Assembly (NCBI GenBank): GCA_027858895.1
Contig: JAQIBX010000015.1
Location: forward strand, 1 to 45,296
Direction of reading: 5' to 3'
Origin: Desulfuromusa sp.
GTDB lineage: Bacteria; Desulfobacterota; Desulfuromonadia; Desulfuromonadales; Geopsychrobacteraceae
Length of the DNA: 45,296 nt
A program made the position numbers and the translations under genes. Shown here one piece after another: positions 11,653-23,514 of the stretch. A model generated the notes under the pieces. It searched no databases. It saw only the letters and a program-made list of their open reading frames with translations, and was not told the DNA's origin. Positions within the stretch are counted from its first letter, which is position 1, and the number at the start of each line of letters is the position of its first letter.

Positions 11653-11691
11653 ACAAAGAGGGTCGTACTGTTTCAGTACGACCCTCTTTGT
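11653..11691. terminator. Bidirectional terminator between ferritin and dctM
   Basis: Perfect 18-bp inverted repeat ACAAAGAGGGTCGTACTG-TTT-CAGTACGACCCTCTTTGT between convergent genes. Confidence 0.75.
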
Positions 11692-11713: not shown

Positions 11714-13015
11714 TCAATAAGTGCTGCTTATACCAAAGACACCCGGAAATATCACCAGAATTGCCAATACAAAAACTTGTATCGCAATAAAAGGCAGCAC
11801 CCCCGAATATATGTCGGTTGTTTTAATTTCGGGCGGCGAGACTCCTTTCAGATAAAAAAGGCTGAAGCCGAAGGGAGGAGTCAGAAAAGAGGTCTGCAGG
11901 TTCATCGCAACCAGAATGGCATACCAGATTGGGTTGATCCCCAGATTAGCCGCTATTGGTGCCAGTATCGGCACGATGATATAAGATATTTCAACAAAAT
12001 CGATGAAGAACCCGAGCACCATGATAACCAGCATCGACAGGATCAGGAAGCCCCACTTTCCTGCGGGTAGCCCCATCATGAAGTCTTCGACCAGGTAATC
12101 ACCACCTGTGTAAGTAAAAACCATAGAAAAAGCGGTGGCACCCACCAAAATCGCAAAAACCATCGAAGTAATTTTAACTGTTTCCAGTGCGCTATCCCAA
12201 ACCATTTTTACCGATAACTGCCGGTACAACCCCGCTAAGATGACGGCACCAACACCACCAACAGCAGAAGATTCGGTGGGGGTCGCAATGCCGAACAGAA
12301 TGGAACCAAGCACCAGGATAATCAAGGTCAACGGGGGAACAATGGCCTTAAGAGCTCTGCCAACCTGTTGTTTTTTAGTCCCGTACTCCTCCCCTTCCAA
12401 ATGAATTGGTGGAGCCAGATCTTTTTTAAAATAGGTCAGGATCGCAATATAAATAACATAAAACAGCACCAGAGATAGCCCGGGCCAAAAAGCCGCCATA
12501 AACAGGTCACCGACCGGCACTTGAAAAACATCCCCAAGAATAATCAGAATAATGGATGGTGGTATAATCTGCCCGAGAGTTCCCGCAGCACAGATTGCCC
12601 CCGTTGCCAATTTTTTATCGTAGTTATACTTCAGCATAACCGGCAGGGAGATAACCCCCATAGCAACAACACTGGCTCCGACCACTCCCGTAGAGGCTGC
12701 CAATAACGCCCCAACCAGAACTGTCGAAATAGCAACGCCACCGCGCATTTCACCAAACAGAAACCCCATTGATTCAAGCAGCCGCTCGGCCAACTTGGAT
12801 TTCTGCAGAATAATTCCCATAAAGATAAACAGCGGGATCGCCATCAGAATCGTGTTGTTCATAACCGACCAGATGCGATGCGGCATCATGGCAAACATGC
12901 CCTGCCCCTCAGCAATCAGGCCGAAAACAACGGCAGCCCCTCCGAAAGTAAATGCGACCGGGAAGCCAAGCAACAGCAATCCCAGGCAGACAGCAAACAT
13001 TGTTAAACCAATCAT
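11714..13015 (-). CDS. dctM: TRAP transporter large permease (DctM)
   Basis: 433 aa; LLLGFPVAFTFGGAAVVFG, CAAGTLGQIIPPSI, MNLQTSFLTPPFGFSLFYLKGVSPPE. Confidence 0.93.
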   Translation of the reverse strand: MIGLTMFAVCLGLLLLGFPVAFTFGGAAVVFGLIAEGQGMFAMMPHRIWSVMNNTILMAIPLFIFMGIILQKSKLAERLLESMGFLFGEMRGGVAISTVLVGALLAASTGVVGASVVAMGVISLPVMLKYNYDKKLATGAICAAGTLGQIIPPSIILIILGDVFQVPVGDLFMAAFWPGLSLVLFYVIYIAILTYFKKDLAPPIHLEGEEYGTKKQQVGRALKAIVPPLTLIILVLGSILFGIATPTESSAVGGVGAVILAGLYRQLSVKMVWDSALETVKITSMVFAILVGATAFSMVFTYTGGDYLVEDFMMGLPAGKWGFLILSMLVIMVLGFFIDFVEISYIIVPILAPIAANLGINPIWYAILVAMNLQTSFLTPPFGFSLFYLKGVSPPEIKTTDIYSGVLPFIAIQVFVLAILVIFPGVFGISSTY

Positions 13016-13076: not shown

Positions 13077-13622
13077 TCAAAGAATATTATCTTCGATCTT
13101 ATGTTGCGGAGGAAATTCCAGACCACGATACATGCGGATATTCCGAACCACAAATCCCAGCGCAGATATAATCAAAAAAACAAAAGAGAGCGGGATCACA
13201 GCCTTGATCAGATAAGTGTGGGTCAACCCTCCCGGGTCCCCACTGATTTCGCCCATCGTATAAGATTCATGAACAAACCAGATCGACCCACTTATAATCA
13301 AATAAGCCAGTGGAATCAGAAAAAGAAAAGTTCCAGAGATATTAATGATGGCTTTTAACTTAGGACTGAAGCGGTCATACAAGACATCGACCCGCACATG
13401 TCCTTCTTCTTTCAGAGCATAGGAAATACCGAAGAGAAACACGACGGAAAAAATGTGCCACTCCAGTTCCTGCATTGCAATAGAACCAGTGCGAAAAAAA
13501 TAGCGCATGATTGCATCATAAAATACGTTGACCAACATCACCAACATCAGAGCAGCTGAAATCCAGCCGATAACATCGGAAAATCGATCCAGAATTCGTT
13601 CAGTTTTTAACAGCATAATCAT
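13077..13622 (-). CDS. dctQ: TRAP transporter small permease (DctQ)
   Basis: 181 aa, four TMs, QELEWHIFSVVFLFGISYALKEEGHVRVDVLYD. Confidence 0.9.
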   Translation of the reverse strand: MIMLLKTERILDRFSDVIGWISAALMLVMLVNVFYDAIMRYFFRTGSIAMQELEWHIFSVVFLFGISYALKEEGHVRVDVLYDRFSPKLKAIINISGTFLFLIPLAYLIISGSIWFVHESYTMGEISGDPGGLTHTYLIKAVIPLSFVFLIISALGFVVRNIRMYRGLEFPPQHKIEDNIL

Positions 13623-13647: not shown

Positions 13648-13678
13648 AAAAAAGCTCCCAGCAGAGTTTGCTGGGAGC
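13648..13678 (-). terminator. Hairpin/terminator between dctP and dctQ
   Basis: GCTCCCAGCA-GAGTT-TGCTGGGAGC (13654-13678); the minus-strand transcript continues into TTTTTT. Confidence 0.75.
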
Positions 13679-13701
13679 CATAGCTGTATCATTAAATAAC
13701 T

Positions 13702-14787
13702 TTACTCGAGATTATCTTTCAAATAGGCATAATCGGATATTTCTGTCCAGCGGCGTGCTTTCTTCATGTAAGCAGTTTGAGCGTCATAAATTTTCTTGAA
13801 CATGGGATCTTTAGCTGCACTTTCCTGCAGTAGTTTTTCATTCTCGACCTTCATTGCCGCAATAACTTCTTTCGGGAAGGTTTTGATCTTGACGTTCGGG
13901 TATTCCGTATCAATCTTGTCCAGGTTAACGGCACTGTCATTGTAAGAGCGTGCATACATGTCATAGGCAGCAAACTCCATAGCCACTTCCAGGATCTTTT
14001 GCAGGTGCTTTGGTAGAGCATTAAACTTCTCCTGATTAACCAGGAACTGCAGTTCGGTTGCAGGCTCATGCCAACCAGTATAGTAGTATGGTGCAATCTT
14101 GTGGAAACCCATGTTCAAATCAAGAGAGGGTCCGACCCATTCCAGCGCATCAATTGTCCCGCGATCAAGCGCTGTATAAAGCTCTCCCGGGGGAATATTA
14201 GTAACAACAACACCAAGTTTAGACATAACTTCACCGGCGAAACCGGGGATCCGCATTTTCAGACCTTTTAAATCATCCAGGCTGTTAATCTCTTTCTGGA
14301 ACCAACCACCCATCTGGTTGCTGGTATTTCCACCGGGGTAGGAATTAACACCATGACGATCGTAAACTTCCTTCATCAGCTCCATACCACCACCATAGTA
14401 GAACCAGGCATATTGCTCGGGAGCAATCATACCGAAAGGCATGGTGGTGAAGAACTGGGTATTCTGGTCCTTACCTTTCCAGTAGTAAGATGCGGAATGC
14501 CCCATCTCATACTGTCCTAATTTGACCATGTCAAGAATGCCAAAAGCAGCCTTGTGCTTGTTCGCTGAATCGATGCGAATTTCCATTTCGCCATTCGACA
14601 TTTCCTTGACCATATCGGCCATTTTAATAACCGCATCACCAAAGATCGGGAAGCCGGTTCCCCAGGTCTGGGCCAGCTTCCAGCGATACTTGGGCGCTGC
14701 CTCTGCCTGAGGGGCAAAGGTTCCAACCATCAACAATGAGAAAACGGCCAGTAAACAAACGGTCATGCGTAATACAGATCTTTTCAT
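13702..14787 (-). CDS. dctP: TRAP substrate-binding protein, TakP-like (2-oxoacid type)
   Basis: Sec signal peptide; RMRIPGFAGEVMSKLG-like region, LDRGTIDALEWVGPSLDLNMGFHKIAPYYYTGWHEP. Confidence 0.88.
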   Translation of the reverse strand: MKRSVLRMTVCLLAVFSLLMVGTFAPQAEAAPKYRWKLAQTWGTGFPIFGDAVIKMADMVKEMSNGEMEIRIDSANKHKAAFGILDMVKLGQYEMGHSASYYWKGKDQNTQFFTTMPFGMIAPEQYAWFYYGGGMELMKEVYDRHGVNSYPGGNTSNQMGGWFQKEINSLDDLKGLKMRIPGFAGEVMSKLGVVVTNIPPGELYTALDRGTIDALEWVGPSLDLNMGFHKIAPYYYTGWHEPATELQFLVNQEKFNALPKHLQKILEVAMEFAAYDMYARSYNDSAVNLDKIDTEYPNVKIKTFPKEVIAAMKVENEKLLQESAAKDPMFKKIYDAQTAYMKKARRWTEISDYAYLKDNLE

Positions 14788-14974: not shown

Positions 14975-15003
14975 TAAGCGGTCGGATTGGTCAGTTAAGC
15001 GGT
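14975..15003 (-). promoter_or_regulatory. Predicted BtsR/LytTR operator: ACCGCTTA-N13-ACCGCTTA on the minus strand
   Basis: Identical octamers TAAGCGGT at 14975-14982 and 14996-15003 (plus strand), exactly 13 bp between, upstream of dctP. Confidence 0.75.
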
Positions 15004-15011
15004 AAGCAGCA

Positions 15012-15722
15012 TTAAAGTTTCAGTCGCACCTTCAACTGACGCAGATAGCGACGGCTGACCGGCAGAAGATTGCCCAGCTTGGTTTTAATTTTTCCTGAAC
15101 CATTTTCAAGCAGCTTTATTTCGTCGATTTTATCAGGATTAACCAGATACTGCCGCTGACAGCGCAGCAACGGAGTCCGTTCTTCCAGAACCTTGAGGGT
15201 CAACTCGGTATAAAACTGTCCCTCGGATGTGACAATGTGAATTCCGGACAAATCAGAAAAGACATATTCGACATCAGCAAAAGTAATCAGCTTAAGCCGG
15301 TTGGCAAACTGACAGGGAACATGGCGCAATAACTCTACTTGGTGTTTCGGTGCTTCACCACGGCGGATTGTCTCCCTAACTTTGTGGACTGTTTTTAACA
15401 AGCGCTCAAAAGAGACCGGTTTCAGCAGATAATCTAAGGTTTTCTCTTCAAACGCTTTCAGGGCATGTTCATTGTAAGCCGTCACAAAAACCACATGTGG
15501 CATCAATTCATCTTCGATCATTGTCAGCAATTCAAAACCGTTGAGTGCCGGCATTTCAATATCCAGAAAAAGCAGTTCTGGTTTTTCGACACGAATCCGC
15601 CGTAACGCATCAATCGCATTGGCACAACTGCCCAAGATCTCAAATGCACCCGTCTCTTTGACGAGATGTTCGAGTTCTTCCCGCGCATGCTGTTCATCAT
15701 CAATGATTAACGCACGAATCAT
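15012..15722 (-). CDS. btsR: LytTR-family response regulator, BtsR-like
   Basis: Receiver MIRALIIDDEQHAREELE...LFLDIEMPALNGFELL; LytTR domain RTPLLRCQRQYLVNPDKIDEIKLLENGSGKIKTKLGNLLPVSRRYLRQLK. Confidence 0.88.
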   Translation of the reverse strand: MIRALIIDDEQHAREELEHLVKETGAFEILGSCANAIDALRRIRVEKPELLFLDIEMPALNGFELLTMIEDELMPHVVFVTAYNEHALKAFEEKTLDYLLKPVSFERLLKTVHKVRETIRRGEAPKHQVELLRHVPCQFANRLKLITFADVEYVFSDLSGIHIVTSEGQFYTELTLKVLEERTPLLRCQRQYLVNPDKIDEIKLLENGSGKIKTKLGNLLPVSRRYLRQLKVRLKL

Positions 15723-17397
15723 TCGCCGACTCTTCAACTAGTGGAAACCTAACCTGAACCAAGGTTTTCTGCTGGGGTTCACAAACGACTGTCAAACCGA
15801 ATTCATTACCGTAGTTATTTTTTATCCGTTGATCCACCAACCGCAACCCCAAACCTTGGGAATCGAGTGGTTTACGATAGTTTCCGGCATTATCCTCCAC
15901 CTCAATCACGACCAGCCCCTTATGGCGATAGACCCTGACCCATATCTGTCCCTGATCGAGCAAATCTGCAACACCGTGTTTGATGGCATTTTCAATCAAT
16001 GGCTGCAAAGTAAATACCGGAATGTTCAACCCCAGCAAAATCGGGTCAATCTCCTGATTAACCGTCAAACGGTCACCAAAGCGAGCTTTTTCAATTTCAA
16101 GATAAGAATTGATATGTGCCAGTTCTTCTTCAAGAGTCACAATATCCCGGTTCCGCTTCAGGTTAGTACGAATAAATGTAGACAATTGCAGCAGCAGCCC
16201 CCGGGCCTGATCTGCATCTTTTCGGATAATCGCCATGATGGTATTCAAAGCATTGAATAAAAAGTGTGGATTGACCTGTGCCTGAAGCAGTTTCAATTCC
16301 GATTGAACCAACAGCGTTTTCTGCTCTTCGAAGCGGGAACGGAGTAACTGGTGAGAATAAAGGGTTGCCAATCCCTCGCCAAAAGAACGATTGATATTCA
16401 GAAATAGTTTTGTTTTAGGTTCATAAAGACTGATGGTACCGACTACCTCCTGATCCACCTGAAGTGGAACCACCAGTGCAGACCCCAGTGGGCAATTTGA
16501 GGAAAGAGGACATTGAAAATGCTCATCATAGCCATTCACAAAAACAACCTTATTCTCACGCAATGCCTGCTTTGACCACTTGGTCACAACAGGATTTCCA
16601 GCATGGTGATGATCTGCCCCGATACCTGAGAAAGCCAGTATTTCCTCCCGATCGGTAATTGCGACAGCACCAACCCCTGTTTCCTGGCGAATAACCTCAA
16701 CCATTTCACGTGCTGTTTCGGAGCTGAATCCACGGCTGAGAATTCCCAAGGTTCGATCCGCGACAGTGAATGCCTTGGAAGAAAACCTTGCACCAACTTT
16801 ATCGCGCACCCGCTTCTGATCACGCACCATACTGATAAAAAGTGCAGCCCCAATAGAGTTCGCACAGATCATCGGCAGTGCGATCACCTTGACCAGCGCA
16901 ACCGCATCCTCAAAAGGGCGAGCCAAGGCCAGAATGATTGTCATCTGCAGGACTTCGGCAATCAGCGTAGCAGAAAAAGCGACAAAAGGATGAAATAGCT
17001 GTTCCGGTTTTTTCCGCCGTATCAGATAAAGGTGTACCAGCCCTCCGATTAATCCCTCAACTGTCGTCGAAATCCCGCAGGAAAAATCGGTGAACCCCCC
17101 GAGAGAGAACCGATGTAAACCGGCAGTCAATCCAACCGACAAGCCTAAGACTGGTCCACCAATGAGGCCGGCAAGAACCGCCCCAATGGCTCGAGTGTTG
17201 GCGATAGCACCCTGAATCGGCAACCCGGTGTAGGTTCCAAGGATCGAAAACGAGGAAAAAACAATATACAGGATCAGCAGCTGCCGACGTTGCAACCTTG
17301 CTCCGGACAGATAGTCCATTGCCGGAGATTTACTAAACAGGTAGGCGATCACAATAATAACCGCTGTCTGCTGAAGAAGTTCAAATATGAGAGACAT
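15700..17397 (-). CDS. btsS: LytS-family sensor histidine kinase (5TMR-LYT, GAF, His_kinase, HATPase), BtsS-like
   Basis: IANTRAIGAVLAGLIGGPVLGLSVGLTAGLHRFSLGGFTDFSCGISTTVEGLIGGLVH; GAF VGAVAITDREEILAFSGIG; QAQVNPHFLFNALNTIMAIIR. Confidence 0.9.
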   Translation of the reverse strand: MSLIFELLQQTAVIIVIAYLFSKSPAMDYLSGARLQRRQLLILYIVFSSFSILGTYTGLPIQGAIANTRAIGAVLAGLIGGPVLGLSVGLTAGLHRFSLGGFTDFSCGISTTVEGLIGGLVHLYLIRRKKPEQLFHPFVAFSATLIAEVLQMTIILALARPFEDAVALVKVIALPMICANSIGAALFISMVRDQKRVRDKVGARFSSKAFTVADRTLGILSRGFSSETAREMVEVIRQETGVGAVAITDREEILAFSGIGADHHHAGNPVVTKWSKQALRENKVVFVNGYDEHFQCPLSSNCPLGSALVVPLQVDQEVVGTISLYEPKTKLFLNINRSFGEGLATLYSHQLLRSRFEEQKTLLVQSELKLLQAQVNPHFLFNALNTIMAIIRKDADQARGLLLQLSTFIRTNLKRNRDIVTLEEELAHINSYLEIEKARFGDRLTVNQEIDPILLGLNIPVFTLQPLIENAIKHGVADLLDQGQIWVRVYRHKGLVVIEVEDNAGNYRKPLDSQGLGLRLVDQRIKNNYGNEFGLTVVCEPQQKTLVQVRFPLVEESANDSCVNH

Positions 17398-17468: not shown

Positions 17469-17497
17469 CGAGTGGTCAGCATCACTCAATCAGCGGT
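17469..17497 (-). promoter_or_regulatory. Degenerate BtsR-like operator upstream of the lytS-type gene
   Basis: Minus strand ACCGCTGA-N13-ACCACTCG; each half 7/8 to ACC(G/A)CT(C/T)A, exact 13-bp spacer. Confidence 0.4.
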
Positions 17498-17655
17498 AGA
17501 GATTAAGTCGCCGAGCAGCTAACATCGTCCCTGGTAGATTCATAAAAATCCATATAAAGCGATGAATTACACATTGACTCGAAATCACAGTTGACCGATT
17601 ATTAGCGATTCAATATTTCTACATATTGGCATTTCCCCATATAAGTGGAGGCTCC

Positions 17656-18213
17656 ATGAAATTCATCCAGTTGGTCGTTCGCTTGATCGACAGGCTCAAT
17701 ACTAAAGTAGGTCACGCTATTGCCTGGCTCAGCTCAATCCTGGTTCTGGTTGTCTGTTATGACGTCTTTACCCGCTATTTTTTACGCAAAAGTAGCGTTG
17801 CGGTTCAGGAACTTGAATGGCATATCTTTGCCGTTCTTTTTTTGCTTGGAGCCGCCTACACCCTGAAAGTCGATGGCCACGTTCGGGTCGATGTCATCTA
17901 TACCCAGCTATCCGTTCGAGGTAAAGCGTGGATCAATCTGTTCGGTAGCCTTATCTTCTTGATTCCCTTTTCAATTTTAGTGATCTGGGCCTGCCAGGGC
18001 TTTATCAGCATGAGCTGGATGATCCAGGAAACCAGCCCTGACCCCGGAGGGCTCCCCTACCGTTTTCTCCTCAAAGCAATGATTCCAACAGGTTTTGGAT
18101 TGATTCTGCTCCAGGGTATCGCAATTACACTACGTTCGTTTTGTACTGTGATCGGTCGCCCACTGGAAGAAATTGCAGAAAAAGATAATAAAGAGGTACA
18201 GCAACATGCCTGA
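17656..18213 (+). CDS. dctQ: TRAP transporter small permease (DctQ), second system
   Basis: QELEWHIFAVLFLLGAAYTLKVDGHVRVDVIYTQLS, four TMs. Start at ATG 17656 after GGAGG. Confidence 0.9.
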   Translation: MKFIQLVVRLIDRLNTKVGHAIAWLSSILVLVVCYDVFTRYFLRKSSVAVQELEWHIFAVLFLLGAAYTLKVDGHVRVDVIYTQLSVRGKAWINLFGSLIFLIPFSILVIWACQGFISMSWMIQETSPDPGGLPYRFLLKAMIPTGFGLILLQGIAITLRSFCTVIGRPLEEIAEKDNKEVQQHA

Positions 18214-19525
18214 ATATATGTCACTGGTCTTATTTGCCACAGTTTTCGGAGTATTGTTACTCGGCTTCCCGGTCGCATTTACTTTGGGTGGGGTTTCTCT
18301 GATCTTCGGTTATTTTACTTTTGGAATGGGTTTTTTCCAACTGCTTCCTCTGCGGATCTGGGGAACCATGGAAAATTTAGTTTTAATTGCCGTTCCGCTG
18401 TTTGTCTACATGGGGATGATGTTTGAGAAATCGGGGTTAGCTGAAGAATTGCTGGAAACAATGGCGATGCTGTTTGGCAAACTGCGCGGTGGCTTAGCTA
18501 TATCGGTCGTCGTTGTCGGCGCGGTCCTCGCAGCCTCAACCGGAATTGTCGGCGCAACGGTTGTCACCATGGGTCTCTTGTCCCTTCCCACCATGCTGAA
18601 ACGTGGTTATTCTCCTGAATTGTCGACCGGAACAATCTGTGCATCTGGCACCTTGGGGCAAATTATTCCGCCAAGTATCGTTCTGGTACTGCTAGGCAGC
18701 GTCCTGAATGTCCCAATTGGCGATATGTTCATCGGCGCAATTATCCCCGGTCTGATATTAGTGGGCATGTATATTCTCTGGATCATCCTTGTCGCATTCT
18801 TTCGTCCACAATCGGCACCGGCAATGCCCGCCCAGGAGCTCGCCGATTTTCGTAAATCGGGGATGTACCGAAAGATTATTAGAGCGTTCCTGTTACCGTT
18901 CTTTTTAATCGTTGCAGTTCTCGGATCGATCTTTGCCGGGATCGCTTCCCCAACAGAAGCCGCTGCCGTTGGGGCGATGGGAGCCACTCTTCTCACCATC
19001 TGGCAAAAAAAATTAAACTTACACACTTTACGTGAAGTCATGCGTGGCACCACAACACTCACTTGCATGGTTTTTATTTTGATTGTTGGTGCAACAGCCT
19101 TTGGATTGGTTTTCCGGGGAATGGGTGGTGATCGCTACATTACCAATCTTATTCTGGGTGCCGGAATGGAGCCACACCACTTCCTGCTTATTGTCATGTT
19201 GGTTGTTTTTGTGGCTGGTTTCTTCATCGATTTTATCGAAATCACCTTTATTATCGTTCCTGTGGTGGCACCGATCTTCCAACTGATGGGCATCGATCTA
19301 CTCTGGGTCGGAATTCTGATCGCAATGAATCTGCAGACTTCGTTTCTGACACCACCTTTCGGCTTCAGCCTTTTTTATCTGAAAGGGGTTTCTCCTCCGG
19401 AAATTACCACCACACAGATCTACAAAGGGATAATCCCTTTTGTCGGAATTCAACTCATCTGTCTTTTCATCGTCGTCGTCTGGCCAGAAACTGTCACCTG
19501 GCTGCCAAAATATATGGCTCGATAA
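18206..19525 (+). CDS. dctM: TRAP transporter large permease (DctM), second system
   Basis: MPEYMSLVLFATVFGVLLLGFPVAFTLGG...MNLQTSFLTPPFGFSLFYLKGVSPPEITTTQIYKG. Confidence 0.92.
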   Translation: MPEYMSLVLFATVFGVLLLGFPVAFTLGGVSLIFGYFTFGMGFFQLLPLRIWGTMENLVLIAVPLFVYMGMMFEKSGLAEELLETMAMLFGKLRGGLAISVVVVGAVLAASTGIVGATVVTMGLLSLPTMLKRGYSPELSTGTICASGTLGQIIPPSIVLVLLGSVLNVPIGDMFIGAIIPGLILVGMYILWIILVAFFRPQSAPAMPAQELADFRKSGMYRKIIRAFLLPFFLIVAVLGSIFAGIASPTEAAAVGAMGATLLTIWQKKLNLHTLREVMRGTTTLTCMVFILIVGATAFGLVFRGMGGDRYITNLILGAGMEPHHFLLIVMLVVFVAGFFIDFIEITFIIVPVVAPIFQLMGIDLLWVGILIAMNLQTSFLTPPFGFSLFYLKGVSPPEITTTQIYKGIIPFVGIQLICLFIVVVWPETVTWLPKYMAR

Positions 19526-19530
19526 AAAGT

Positions 19531-20745
19531 TTAATCCAGCTTTCGTTGCCGATAGGCTTGAGCCATCCCCCCAGCGGAAGTTTCACGATACAAAGATGGC
19601 AAGGCGTGGCCTGTTTCTCGCATAACCATGGTGATTTCGTCGAAGCTGATTTTGTGTTCCCCTCCGGATAGGAGAGAAAAATGACAGCAGCTCAAGGCTC
19701 GGGTCGCCGCATGAGCGTTGCGTTCGATGCAGGGAATCTGCACTAACCCATCGACCGGATCGCAGGTCAAACCAAGATGGTGTTCCAATCCCATTTCTGC
19801 CGCATATTCAATCTGCTTGGCCGTACCGCCGTGGAGTTGAGTTGCAGCTGCAGCGGCCATAGCACAAGCAGTCCCGATTTCGCCTTGACAACCAACTTCC
19901 GCTCCGGAGATTGAAGCATTGTGCTTCACCAGATTGCCAATTAAACCAGCGGTTGCTAAAGCTCGAAGAATATCCTCATGACTACACTCCAAAGTTTCGT
20001 TCAAATATTGTAGGACTGCAGGAAGGACACCGCTGGCTCCACAGGTTGGTGCGGTAACAATCATGCCGCCGCTGGCATTTTCTTCCGCTACCGCCAGAGC
20101 ATAAGCCCAGACTCTTGCGGTATTTTTCATATCAGGCCCATACAGACTCGATTTACGGTAAAAAGTATGGGCTTTGCGCGCCAGTCCCAATCCTCCGGGT
20201 AAAATTCCTACATGCTTCAATCCCTGGCTGATTGCTAAGGACATGACATCCCAGATTTTATCGAGAAAATCCAAAAAATTGCAATCTTCACAATACTGAA
20301 CATACTCCCAAAGAGATTCACCGCTGCGCTCCAAGTCCCCCAGAATCGCGGCTAATTTTGTTAGAGGATAGATTGACGGTGGAAGCACTAATTCTTCGCT
20401 ATCCTGAAGAGCCCCGCCACCTACGCTATACACCTCCCAACTATGCAATAGCGATCCAGAAACGGTCATTGCCTCGAAACGCATCCCGTTAGGGTGCAAC
20501 GGAAGTTGCTGTTCGGGAACCCAAAGCAATTCCAGCTCTGATTGATGCGCTTGAAATACGCCAAATAACGCTTTGTCGGTCAGATGTCCACGCCCGGTTG
20601 CAGCAAGACTGCCAAATAGTGTAACCCGGTAATGTTCAGCGCCAGGGTGTTTTTCCAAAAAAGTCAAAGCTGCCTGACGCGGTGCCATGGTGTGACTGCT
20701 GGATGGTCCGGTACCGATGCGGTAAAGTTGGCGTAGCGATTCCAT
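19531..20745 (-). CDS. sdaA: L-serine ammonia-lyase (single-chain, iron-sulfur type)
   Basis: YRIGTGPSSSHTMAPRQAA, GGMIVTAPTCGASGVLPAVLQY, ASISGAEVGCQGEIGTACAMAAAA. Confidence 0.92.
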   Translation of the reverse strand: MESLRQLYRIGTGPSSSHTMAPRQAALTFLEKHPGAEHYRVTLFGSLAATGRGHLTDKALFGVFQAHQSELELLWVPEQQLPLHPNGMRFEAMTVSGSLLHSWEVYSVGGGALQDSEELVLPPSIYPLTKLAAILGDLERSGESLWEYVQYCEDCNFLDFLDKIWDVMSLAISQGLKHVGILPGGLGLARKAHTFYRKSSLYGPDMKNTARVWAYALAVAEENASGGMIVTAPTCGASGVLPAVLQYLNETLECSHEDILRALATAGLIGNLVKHNASISGAEVGCQGEIGTACAMAAAAATQLHGGTAKQIEYAAEMGLEHHLGLTCDPVDGLVQIPCIERNAHAATRALSCCHFSLLSGGEHKISFDEITMVMRETGHALPSLYRETSAGGMAQAYRQRKLD

Positions 20746-20838: not shown

Positions 20839-21933
20839 TTAATCAAACAAAGAATAGTACGCCCTCTCAGAGATTTTACTCCAGGCTTGTTGCTGTTTCT
20901 GGAATTTGCTAAAACTCTCATAAACTTTCTTACTCATTGGGTCCTTAGCAACGATCTCCTCAAGCACCTCCACAGAATACTTTCTCAATTGCTTGACAAC
21001 ATCATCTGGGAATTTCTTGAGAACAACCCCCTCTTCCTTAACCATCTTATCAAGATAAATATTATTCTTGGTCTCAGATTCACAGAGCATCCACATGTTC
21101 GATGCCATCGTTGCTGCCACGACAATTTCCTGCAGATCTTTCGGTAAAGCTTCATAAGCACTCTTGTTAACAAAAGACTCAAGAACGGTTCCCGGCTCGT
21201 GCCAACCCGGATAGTAGTAGTACTTGGCAACCTTATAAAAACCCATTTTGTAGTCGTTATAAGGGCCGACCCACTCGGTGGCATCGATAACACCGCGCTC
21301 AAGGTTAGTGTAAAGTTCACCCCCCGGAGAAAGAACTGCCGTACCTCCAGCTTTGGCCAGGACCTTGCCACCCAGACCGGGGATCCGCATTTTCAAACCC
21401 TTGAAATCATCAATGCTCTTAATTTCACGATTGAACCAGCCACCCATCTGTACCCCGGTGTTGCCTGCAGGTAGAGGCTTCAGATTGAACTTGCTATAAA
21501 CTTCTTCCCAGAGGGCCATCCCGCCACCGGTATAAAGCCAGGCGTTCATCCCTTGCGCATTCAGACCGAACGGGACTGCAGCAAAAAACTGAGCAGCGGG
21601 AGATTTGCCGGCCCAGTAGTAAGCAGCACCATGGCCCATCTGCACCATTCCCTGGCTAACGGCATCAAAGGCTTGCAATGGCGGAACCAGTTCGCCACCA
21701 CCATAAACCTGAATATTCAGCCGTCCGCCAGACATCACCCCGATCATCTCGGCCAGTTTGTCAGCACCTTCGCCGAGAAGGGGAAAGTGTGGCGGCCAAG
21801 TTGTCACCATTTTCCAATTATAGGTTTTTTCAGCCCGAACAATGGCTGGAGCGCCAATCGTTGTTGCCGCAGCAGCCACAGCCGTAGCTGCCGTCGCTTT
21901 TTTAAGGAAATCACGCCGATTGTTTTTTTCCAT
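20839..21933 (-). CDS. dctP: TRAP substrate-binding protein, TakP-like, Tat signal
   Basis: NRRDFLKKATAATAVAAAATTIGAPAIVRA (twin-arginine); GGELVPPLQAFDAVSQGMVQMGHGAAYYWAGK, PAGNTGVQMGGWFNREI, GVIDATEWVGPYNDYKMGFYKVAKYYYYPGWHEPG. Confidence 0.9.
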   Translation of the reverse strand: MEKNNRRDFLKKATAATAVAAAATTIGAPAIVRAEKTYNWKMVTTWPPHFPLLGEGADKLAEMIGVMSGGRLNIQVYGGGELVPPLQAFDAVSQGMVQMGHGAAYYWAGKSPAAQFFAAVPFGLNAQGMNAWLYTGGGMALWEEVYSKFNLKPLPAGNTGVQMGGWFNREIKSIDDFKGLKMRIPGLGGKVLAKAGGTAVLSPGGELYTNLERGVIDATEWVGPYNDYKMGFYKVAKYYYYPGWHEPGTVLESFVNKSAYEALPKDLQEIVVAATMASNMWMLCESETKNNIYLDKMVKEEGVVLKKFPDDVVKQLRKYSVEVLEEIVAKDPMSKKVYESFSKFQKQQQAWSKISERAYYSLFD

Positions 21934-22047: not shown

Positions 22048-23514
22048 TCAGGATAGCGGAAGATCCACAATAAAAGTAGCCCCTCCGCCCGGGGTTTCCT
22101 CAACCCAGGTATTACCGCCAGAAATCCGGGCAATTTTTGCTACGGTTGCTAACCCGATTCCGGTTCCAGAAAGTCCCTTGCTACTACTGCCCCGCTTGAA
22201 GGGTTCAAAGACTGTTTCCCGTTCCGCTGCGGCAATCCCCGAACCATGATCGACTACTACAAAGCGCACTCGATCAAAAAATTGGTGCCCAGAAACTTCA
22301 ATATGCGGATTCTGTGGGGCAGCATATTTGAGCGCATTCTCTAAAAGATTTCTGAACAGATCGGTTAACAATGATTCAGGTATCTTCACTGCTGGCAATT
22401 TATCGATCACAATTTTCGCCCGATGCTCGAGGACTTTATCTGCCAATTCAAGGAGAGCATCCTCTGCAATTCGTGTTGCATCAAGTGATTGATCGGGAAA
22501 TTTTAATTGCCCGACACGTGACAATGACAGTAGATCCTCCAACAGGTCTTTCATTTTTTCTGCGGTCTTCTTGATTTCAAAAATACATTCATGACCGAGA
22601 TCATCAAGCTGGTCACCATAACGTTCTTCAAGCAGTTCAGCAAAACCGATCAGCGGTGTGAGTGGAGAACGCAAATCATGAGAAACAGTTGAAACAAAAG
22701 CATCCAATTCACGATTTGTTTGTTGTAAGCGGCTTCTGTAGTCTAACCGCTCGGTGATATCCCGACTGACACTCAATTTGTGGGTTGGTTTTTCTGCCAA
22801 TGGATAGGGAGAATGGACAACTTCATAAGTCCGTCCGAACTCACTCAGAGTCTTTTCCTGATGAACTATGTGCCCCTGTAATACCTGCGGCAACGGACAA
22901 TCATCACACACCTGATTTCTTTGATAGATCGCCTGATAACAGGGTTTTTCACCAACTTCACCAATAATATCCAGCATCGCCTGATTGGCAAAGATGATAC
23001 GATAATTGTTATCACAGATATAAGCAGGATCAAGCATGCCATCAAGAACAGCCCAGAGGACGGCCTTCTCATTTTCAAGTTCCTGAGTACGTTCTTCGAC
23101 TGCAGCCCGAAGACTGGCTTCCAGCTTTTTGAGGCGGGAGATATCAACAAACGCTTCAATACCACCAACAATTTGACCATCATGATCACGAAGCAGGTCG
23201 ACATTTTTTGTCAGTGCGATGGTTCGACCATCTTTGTGTTGAAATGAGCAGGTTAGCCCAATATCTGGCTTGGGGGTTGTTGCAGAGAAAAGATGACATT
23301 CCATATTGCAGGGATCACCAGACAAAAAAGAACAATGCCGCCCGACTGTTTCCTCCGCTGTATAGCCGGTGATCCGCGTTGCTTCAGCGTTCCAGTAAAC
23401 AATTGTTTTGTCGATATCTATCAGGAACAGTCCGGTTGGAATGGTTTGCAGCAGCGTTTCGAGGGGATATTCGGCAAGTAACCGATAAAGGTTCGAGGTC
23501 ATCAAGTCTCCCAA
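22048..23514 (-). CDS. PAS-domain sensor histidine kinase
   Basis: Two PAS segments, H-box FVSTVSHDLRSPLTPLIGF, ATPase GTGIGLATVAKIARISGGNTWVEETPGGGATF. Start could be 23502. Confidence 0.85.
   Translation of the reverse strand: MGDLMTSNLYRLLAEYPLETLLQTIPTGLFLIDIDKTIVYWNAEATRITGYTAEETVGRHCSFLSGDPCNMECHLFSATTPKPDIGLTCSFQHKDGRTIALTKNVDLLRDHDGQIVGGIEAFVDISRLKKLEASLRAAVEERTQELENEKAVLWAVLDGMLDPAYICDNNYRIIFANQAMLDIIGEVGEKPCYQAIYQRNQVCDDCPLPQVLQGHIVHQEKTLSEFGRTYEVVHSPYPLAEKPTHKLSVSRDITERLDYRSRLQQTNRELDAFVSTVSHDLRSPLTPLIGFAELLEERYGDQLDDLGHECIFEIKKTAEKMKDLLEDLLSLSRVGQLKFPDQSLDATRIAEDALLELADKVLEHRAKIVIDKLPAVKIPESLLTDLFRNLLENALKYAAPQNPHIEVSGHQFFDRVRFVVVDHGSGIAAAERETVFEPFKRGSSSKGLSGTGIGLATVAKIARISGGNTWVEETPGGGATFIVDLPLS

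Follow-up and report, generated by a model that had tools for sequence, protein, structure and literature searches.

A BtsS/BtsR-type sensor pair with a predicted operator before a TRAP transporter operon in Desulfuromusa sp.

Introduction

The BtsSR pair serves as a model for LytS receptors with seven transmembrane segments (7-TM), and its physiology is known largely from enterobacteria, where it works with the transporter BtsT. In the Escherichia coli BtsS/BtsR-BtsT system (YehU/YehT-YjiY), the target of the kinase and regulator is btsT, a distantly located gene for a symporter of the CstA family. The pyruvate site of BtsS consists of R72, R99, C110 and S113; the two arginines are highly conserved among LytS proteins, and the cysteine and serine occur in 71% and 79% of them, respectively (PMC10653868). 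The BtsR-binding oligonucleotide from the E. coli btsT (yjiY) promoter, PyjiY, contains ACCGCTTA-N13-ACCACTCA, and LytTR regulators in general use direct-repeat operators of similar spacing (PMC4847170). A second LytS/LytTR pair of E. coli, PyrS/PyrR (YpdA/YpdB) with YhjX, is likewise responsive to pyruvate but recognizes the operator GGCATTTCAT. On the transport side, the residues that ligate pyruvate and a cation in the TRAP receptor TakP of Rhodobacter sphaeroides (2hzk/2hzl) are Tyr100, Gln156, Arg177, Glu214, Trp215 and Glu240 (PMC1839085). Literature searches returned no relevant paper linking LytS/LytTR pairs or BtsS with TRAP transporters.

Genomic organization of the locus

The window, the whole stretch of 45,296 nucleotides that was analysed, is contig C173 of a draft genome of Desulfuromusa sp., a sulfur/iron-reducing bacterium (2.78 Mb, 98.7% complete), the nearest relatives of which are Desulfuromusa and other Desulfuromonadales. 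Five genes are co-directional on the minus strand. The btsS gene (15700–17397) encodes a LytS-type histidine kinase of 565 amino acids with a transmembrane input domain, and it is followed by btsR (ORF of 241 amino acids, 15012–15737), which encodes a LytTR response regulator. The probable start of btsR is the ATG at 15722, which aligns with the start of E. coli BtsR and overlaps the end of btsS. The dct part runs from 14787 down to 11714 and consists of dctP1 for the TRAP solute-binding protein (13702–14787, PF03480), dctQ1 for the small permease (13077–13622, PF04290) and dctM1 for the large permease (11714–13015, PF06808), so that all three subunits are present. A terminator-like hairpin in the dctP1/dctQ1 gap (13653–13679, minus strand) may act as a partial terminator, so that the binding protein is made in excess of the permease, and a second hairpin with an 18-pair stem past dctM1 (11653–11691, minus strand) likely marks the end of the dctPQM-1 operon.

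A second TRAP system was found to be split. Its small and large permease genes, dctQ2 (17626–18213, likely ATG start at 17656) and dctM2 (18173–19525), lie on the plus strand divergent from btsS, and its likely receptor gene dctP2 (20839–21933, 42% identity to TakP) faces them from the opposite strand, with sdaA for a pyruvate-forming L-serine ammonia-lyase (19531–20745) downstream of it. A PAS-PAS histidine kinase gene (22048–23514, minus strand) lies upstream of dctP2; in four relatives (G074, G077, G082, G083), genes of similar length are located immediately before btsS or dctP1. The sequence-only reading had placed the sensor pair between two TRAP gene sets near a serine dehydratase, and this layout agrees with the gene coordinates. 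It grouped both TRAP systems with sdaA into a single island, which held only in part: the pair does lie between the TRAP sets, but the strong operator described below serves dctPQM-1 only, and D. kysingii (L073) has no adjacent sdaA. A conserved unit including the serine dehydratase was rejected on the same observation and on the presence of the gene at a locus lacking btsSR (L213).

Sequence and phylogenetic analysis of the kinase and regulator

Domain analysis of the kinase revealed 5TM-5TMR_LYT, GAF, His_kinase and HATPase_c domains, and it was the sole match to the His_kinase (LytS-type) family in the genome. It shared 50.1% identity with E. coli BtsS over its full length (557 aligned amino acids), compared to 31% with PyrS/YpdA. 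The LytS tree grouped the kinase with BtsS and placed PyrS elsewhere on a very long branch. An AlphaFold2 model of the kinase (pLDDT 79.6, pTM 0.47) supported a helical membrane domain. The kinase is thus assigned, by sequence comparison, as a BtsS orthologue, and the earlier impression of a close likeness to BtsS was borne out by both the alignment and the phylogeny that it had called for.

Residues R69, R96, C107 and S110 of the kinase, proposed beforehand as equivalents of the BtsS site, did align with R72, R99, C110 and S113, numbers that agree with the published site (PMC10653868), and the phospho-acceptor H382 of BtsS aligned with H378. Although compatible with pyruvate sensing, the four-residue match is weak and non-specific evidence, since the arginines are near-universal and the cysteine and serine occur in some 70–80% of LytS proteins. 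Identity to BtsS peaks at the pocket, reaching 69% in residues 60–120 against 46–54% across the whole transmembrane, GAF and kinase domains, and this pocket-centred peak appears more telling than the four residues themselves. In PyrS, the pocket serine is replaced by threonine in the alignment.

The regulator contains Response_reg and LytTR domains. It shared 44% identity with BtsR and only 26% with PyrR/YpdB, and it scored 311 bits against the NCBIfam BtsR model NF008677, above the curated cut-off of 246; the likeness to E. coli BtsR noted from the sequence could be confirmed on both counts.

Prediction of BtsR operators

An exact direct repeat, ACCGCTTA-N13-ACCGCTTA, was found in the btsR-dctP1 spacer at 15003–14975 on the minus strand. 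The repeat has a 21-bp period and the same spacing as the E. coli btsT operator; 9 nt separate it from the btsR stop on one side and 187 nt from the dctP1 ATG on the other. The search pattern was ACCRCTYA-N13-ACCRCTYA with up to two mismatches allowed; the site matched it with zero mismatches, as no other site in the 2.78-Mb genome did. Within the 45-kb window, two matches were obtained at two or fewer mismatches against 0.15 expected, and none of 100 shuffles reached two. A candidate BtsR operator, which would be cognate to BtsR, thus directly precedes dctPQM-1.

The second match, ACCGCTGA-N13-ACCACTCG with two mismatches, is located at 17497–17469 (minus strand), 72 nt upstream of btsS and between btsS and the divergent dctQ2. 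The octamers of this weaker predicted operator can be discerned at the corresponding position in most TRAP-type relatives. The operator octamers were kept across the relatives while the flanks diverged. No box was found upstream of dctP2, and a genome-wide BtsR regulon was rejected, as the two-mismatch class did not exceed that of the reversed control pattern (10 vs 30 in all).

TRAP transporter and the CstA family

The closest solved relatives of DctP1 were 4pet (1e-159) and 5cm6 (2e-156), which we take to be pyruvate-bound TRAP receptors, followed by 7ug8, annotated as 'Ketoacid-binding protein', and TakP (2hzk). DctP1 belongs to the same solute receptor family as these proteins, and all seven ligand and cation positions checked against TakP (Tyr99, Tyr100, Gln156, Arg177, Glu214, Trp215, Glu240) were identical in both DctP1 and DctP2. 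These matches point to pyruvate or other 2-oxoacids as the probable substrates of dctPQM-1.

No protein of the CstA/BtsT family (PF02554) was found in the genome of the window. The family was also absent from seven of the eight other genomes with TRAP-linked btsSR, the exception being G062, in which the CstA-family gene adjoins a second btsSR; G065, counted apart because it is 71% complete, contained no CstA family protein.

Compared to the E. coli BtsSR-BtsT system, the locus shares the kinase and regulator architecture, the four pocket residues, the operator octamer with its 21-bp period and a transporter gene as the predicted target. It differs in the class and position of that target, a TakP-type TRAP transporter encoded immediately downstream instead of a distant CstA-family symporter, in the additional box upstream of btsS and in the absence of the CstA family from the genome. 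A full BtsSR-BtsT system has a CstA-family target, and in this place the locus has dctPQM.

Comparative genomic analysis

Close BtsS homologues were carried by 30 genomes of the order, and in most of these btsR was followed by btsT of the CstA family. The genus of the window and some relatives from the family and order had dctPQM after btsR instead (G059, G050, G049, which is D. kysingii, G056, G077, G074, G062 and G093), and the same was true of G065 (L211). The operator preceded dctP1 in the same place and orientation, with two or fewer mismatches, in all 10 of the sampled dctPQM loci with btsSR, although the relatives are non-independent observations and at one locus (L075) the operator was read from the neighbourhood view because the dctP1 match there was partial. 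The operators of G062, G093 and G065 had two mismatches each. The same operator preceded btsT in 10 of the 15 BtsT-type loci tested, at a distance of roughly 73–114 nt for sites with two or fewer mismatches, shorter than the 187 nt seen before dctP1. It was absent from all 15 same-order dctPQM loci without btsSR and from all eight gammaproteobacterial loci, where the best matches had 4–7 mismatches.

The btsSR-btsT loci of other Desulfuromonadales, Myxococcota and Bacillota resemble the window in having btsS-btsR followed by a transporter gene, but the transporter is of the BtsT/CstA type and the BtsS proteins fall in other clades. In Desulfuromonadales these loci usually have the same operator before the transporter; the Bacillota btsSR-btsT loci examined had none.

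In G055, a genome of the same genus, the order of dctP2-sdaA, dctM2-dctQ2 and dctP1Q1M1 matches that of the window, but neither btsS nor btsR lies between them (L199). Its dctQ2-dctP1 spacer contains a stretch that resembles the operator region of the relatives, with indels inside the repeats. When this spacer was compared with that of the window, the site sub-region was matched by 4 of 1000 shuffles, and the full-length comparison was no better than shuffles. The comparison is only suggestive of an operator that decayed after loss of the regulator. With presence and absence both seen inside a single genus, neither chance nor synteny by itself is a likely explanation.

Phylogenetic history of the sensor-transporter pairing

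The TRAP-linked BtsS proteins formed one clade (support 100/100) and a separate G093/G065 pair. A single origin of the BtsSR-TRAP arrangement was not rejected (AU p = 0.43), so that one or two origins are both possible. The TRAP linkage is likely derived, given that the BtsT linkage occurs in Bacillota, Myxococcota, one gammaproteobacterium and most of this order. An origin of the TRAP link as a cassette from gammaproteobacteria was rejected: 20 neighbourhoods of close gammaproteobacterial DctP1 homologues lacked btsS, and the eight tested lacked the operator. The sampled gammaproteobacterial dctPQM homologues thus lie away from btsSR, unlike those of the window.

In genome G062, a btsSR-dctPQM pair occurs alongside a btsSR-btsT pair, and the two BtsS proteins fall in different clades; the switch may therefore have run through coexisting pairs and not through direct replacement. 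Replacement in place and the sorting of duplicated or transferred pairs among lineages are equally likely. By either route, the transporter differs, and the sensor seems to have been retained together with its wiring. The sequence-only reading had expected a retained sensor with a changed transporter class, which accords with the operator before dctPQM, with btsT in the same slot past btsR in most relatives and with the lack of the CstA/BtsT family in the genome.

Proposed mechanism and alternative explanations

We consider it probable, at roughly 0.78, that BtsS senses external pyruvate and that the transporter activated by BtsR is, instead of BtsT, a TRAP system for pyruvate/2-oxoacids. The receptor kinase, with its several transmembrane segments, would have a pocket formed by two arginines, one cysteine and one serine, in which external pyruvate, or possibly a closely related 2-oxoacid, is bound; pyruvate as the ligand in Desulfuromusa sp. 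is suggested by the likeness to BtsS. BtsS would then autophosphorylate and pass the phosphate to BtsR, and two BtsR molecules on the direct repeat of 21-bp period between btsR and dctP would switch on dctPQM. Activation, rather than repression, is presumed by analogy. The weaker box upstream of btsS would probably confer autoregulation of btsSR. As a Na+-coupled TRAP importer, DctPQM would scavenge pyruvate and 2-oxoacids and do the job of BtsT, the CstA-family symporter of E. coli and most related Desulfuromonadales. Every component of this predicted circuit is supported by the sequences, through orthology, the pocket, the operator, its co-occurrence with btsSR, the TakP-type receptor and the absence of BtsT.

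The same circuit might be tuned to another ligand, with both kinase and transporter directed to lactate or to another 2-oxo or 2-hydroxy acid. TakP-type receptors include the lactate binder TTHA0766 (2zzv) and proteins that bind 2-oxoacids other than pyruvate, and the authors of the BtsS study proposed lactate as a possible signal for LytS kinases whose residues at C110/S113 differ (PMC10653868). Here both C107 and S110 are unchanged, identity is highest at the pocket (69% in residues 60–120), and TTHA0766 is a more distant relative of DctP1 than 4pet/5cm6 or TakP, so that we regard a different ligand as unlikely.

Considerably less probable is that BtsSR mainly regulates itself or the divergent dctQ2M2 and that its linkage to dctPQM-1 is positional. 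A BtsR-like box does sit between btsS and dctQ2, but it is the box before dctP1 that matches perfectly and that is gone where btsSR is absent, and the weaker btsS-proximal box occurs also in relatives in which no adjacent dctQ2 was detected (L075, L077). An ordinary LytS/LytTR pair with only a superficial likeness to BtsS/BtsR and an operator arising by chance is the least credible explanation. The two arginines are indeed common in LytS family proteins, and LytTR regulators as a class bind direct repeats spaced in a similar way (PMC4847170); against this stand the 50% full-length identity, the BtsR equivalog cut-off being passed, and an operator that is perfect and unique in the genome with an association of 10/10 against 0/15.

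BtsS paralogs with altered pockets

In a sister clade of BtsS paralogs, most pocket residues have been lost: positions 72/99/110/113 read G-S-Q-S, S-S-V-L, G-L-Y-S and G-L-Y-A among the loci L102, L103, L096 and L100. At L102 and L103, the pair precedes an operon for a carboxyltransferase and a Na+-pumping decarboxylase beta subunit, with a near-perfect or perfect BtsR-type box between them, which probably represents the same wiring with a new ligand. In two further genomes (L094 in G124, L095 in G105), BtsS variants with R-R-A-A, in which both the cysteine and the serine are changed to alanine, are followed by a gene pair resembling a flavoprotein reductase and glutamate synthase; at L094 a box with one mismatch was present.

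Significance

The BtsSR-BtsT system itself is known; what is new is the retention of the BtsSR sensor half, with a predicted BtsSR-BtsT-like mode of working, alongside a TRAP transporter in the role of BtsT. We lean slightly towards a broader reading in which BtsS, BtsR and the operator form a portable module placed on non-homologous transporters for the same ligand (BtsT or TakP-type TRAP), with the operator arising and decaying as the pair is gained and lost, and with pocket-altered paralogs placed on other outputs such as the Na+-pumping decarboxylase. The arrangement allows a regulator to predict the substrate of a TRAP system. The btsSR-dctPQM arrangement is present in a cultured strain, Desulfuromusa kysingii DSM 7343, and G055, which lacks btsSR at this very locus in the same genus, provides a natural control. 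The conservation of sensor, regulator and operator with another class of importer suggests that the selected function may be high-affinity pyruvate scavenging and not BtsT itself.
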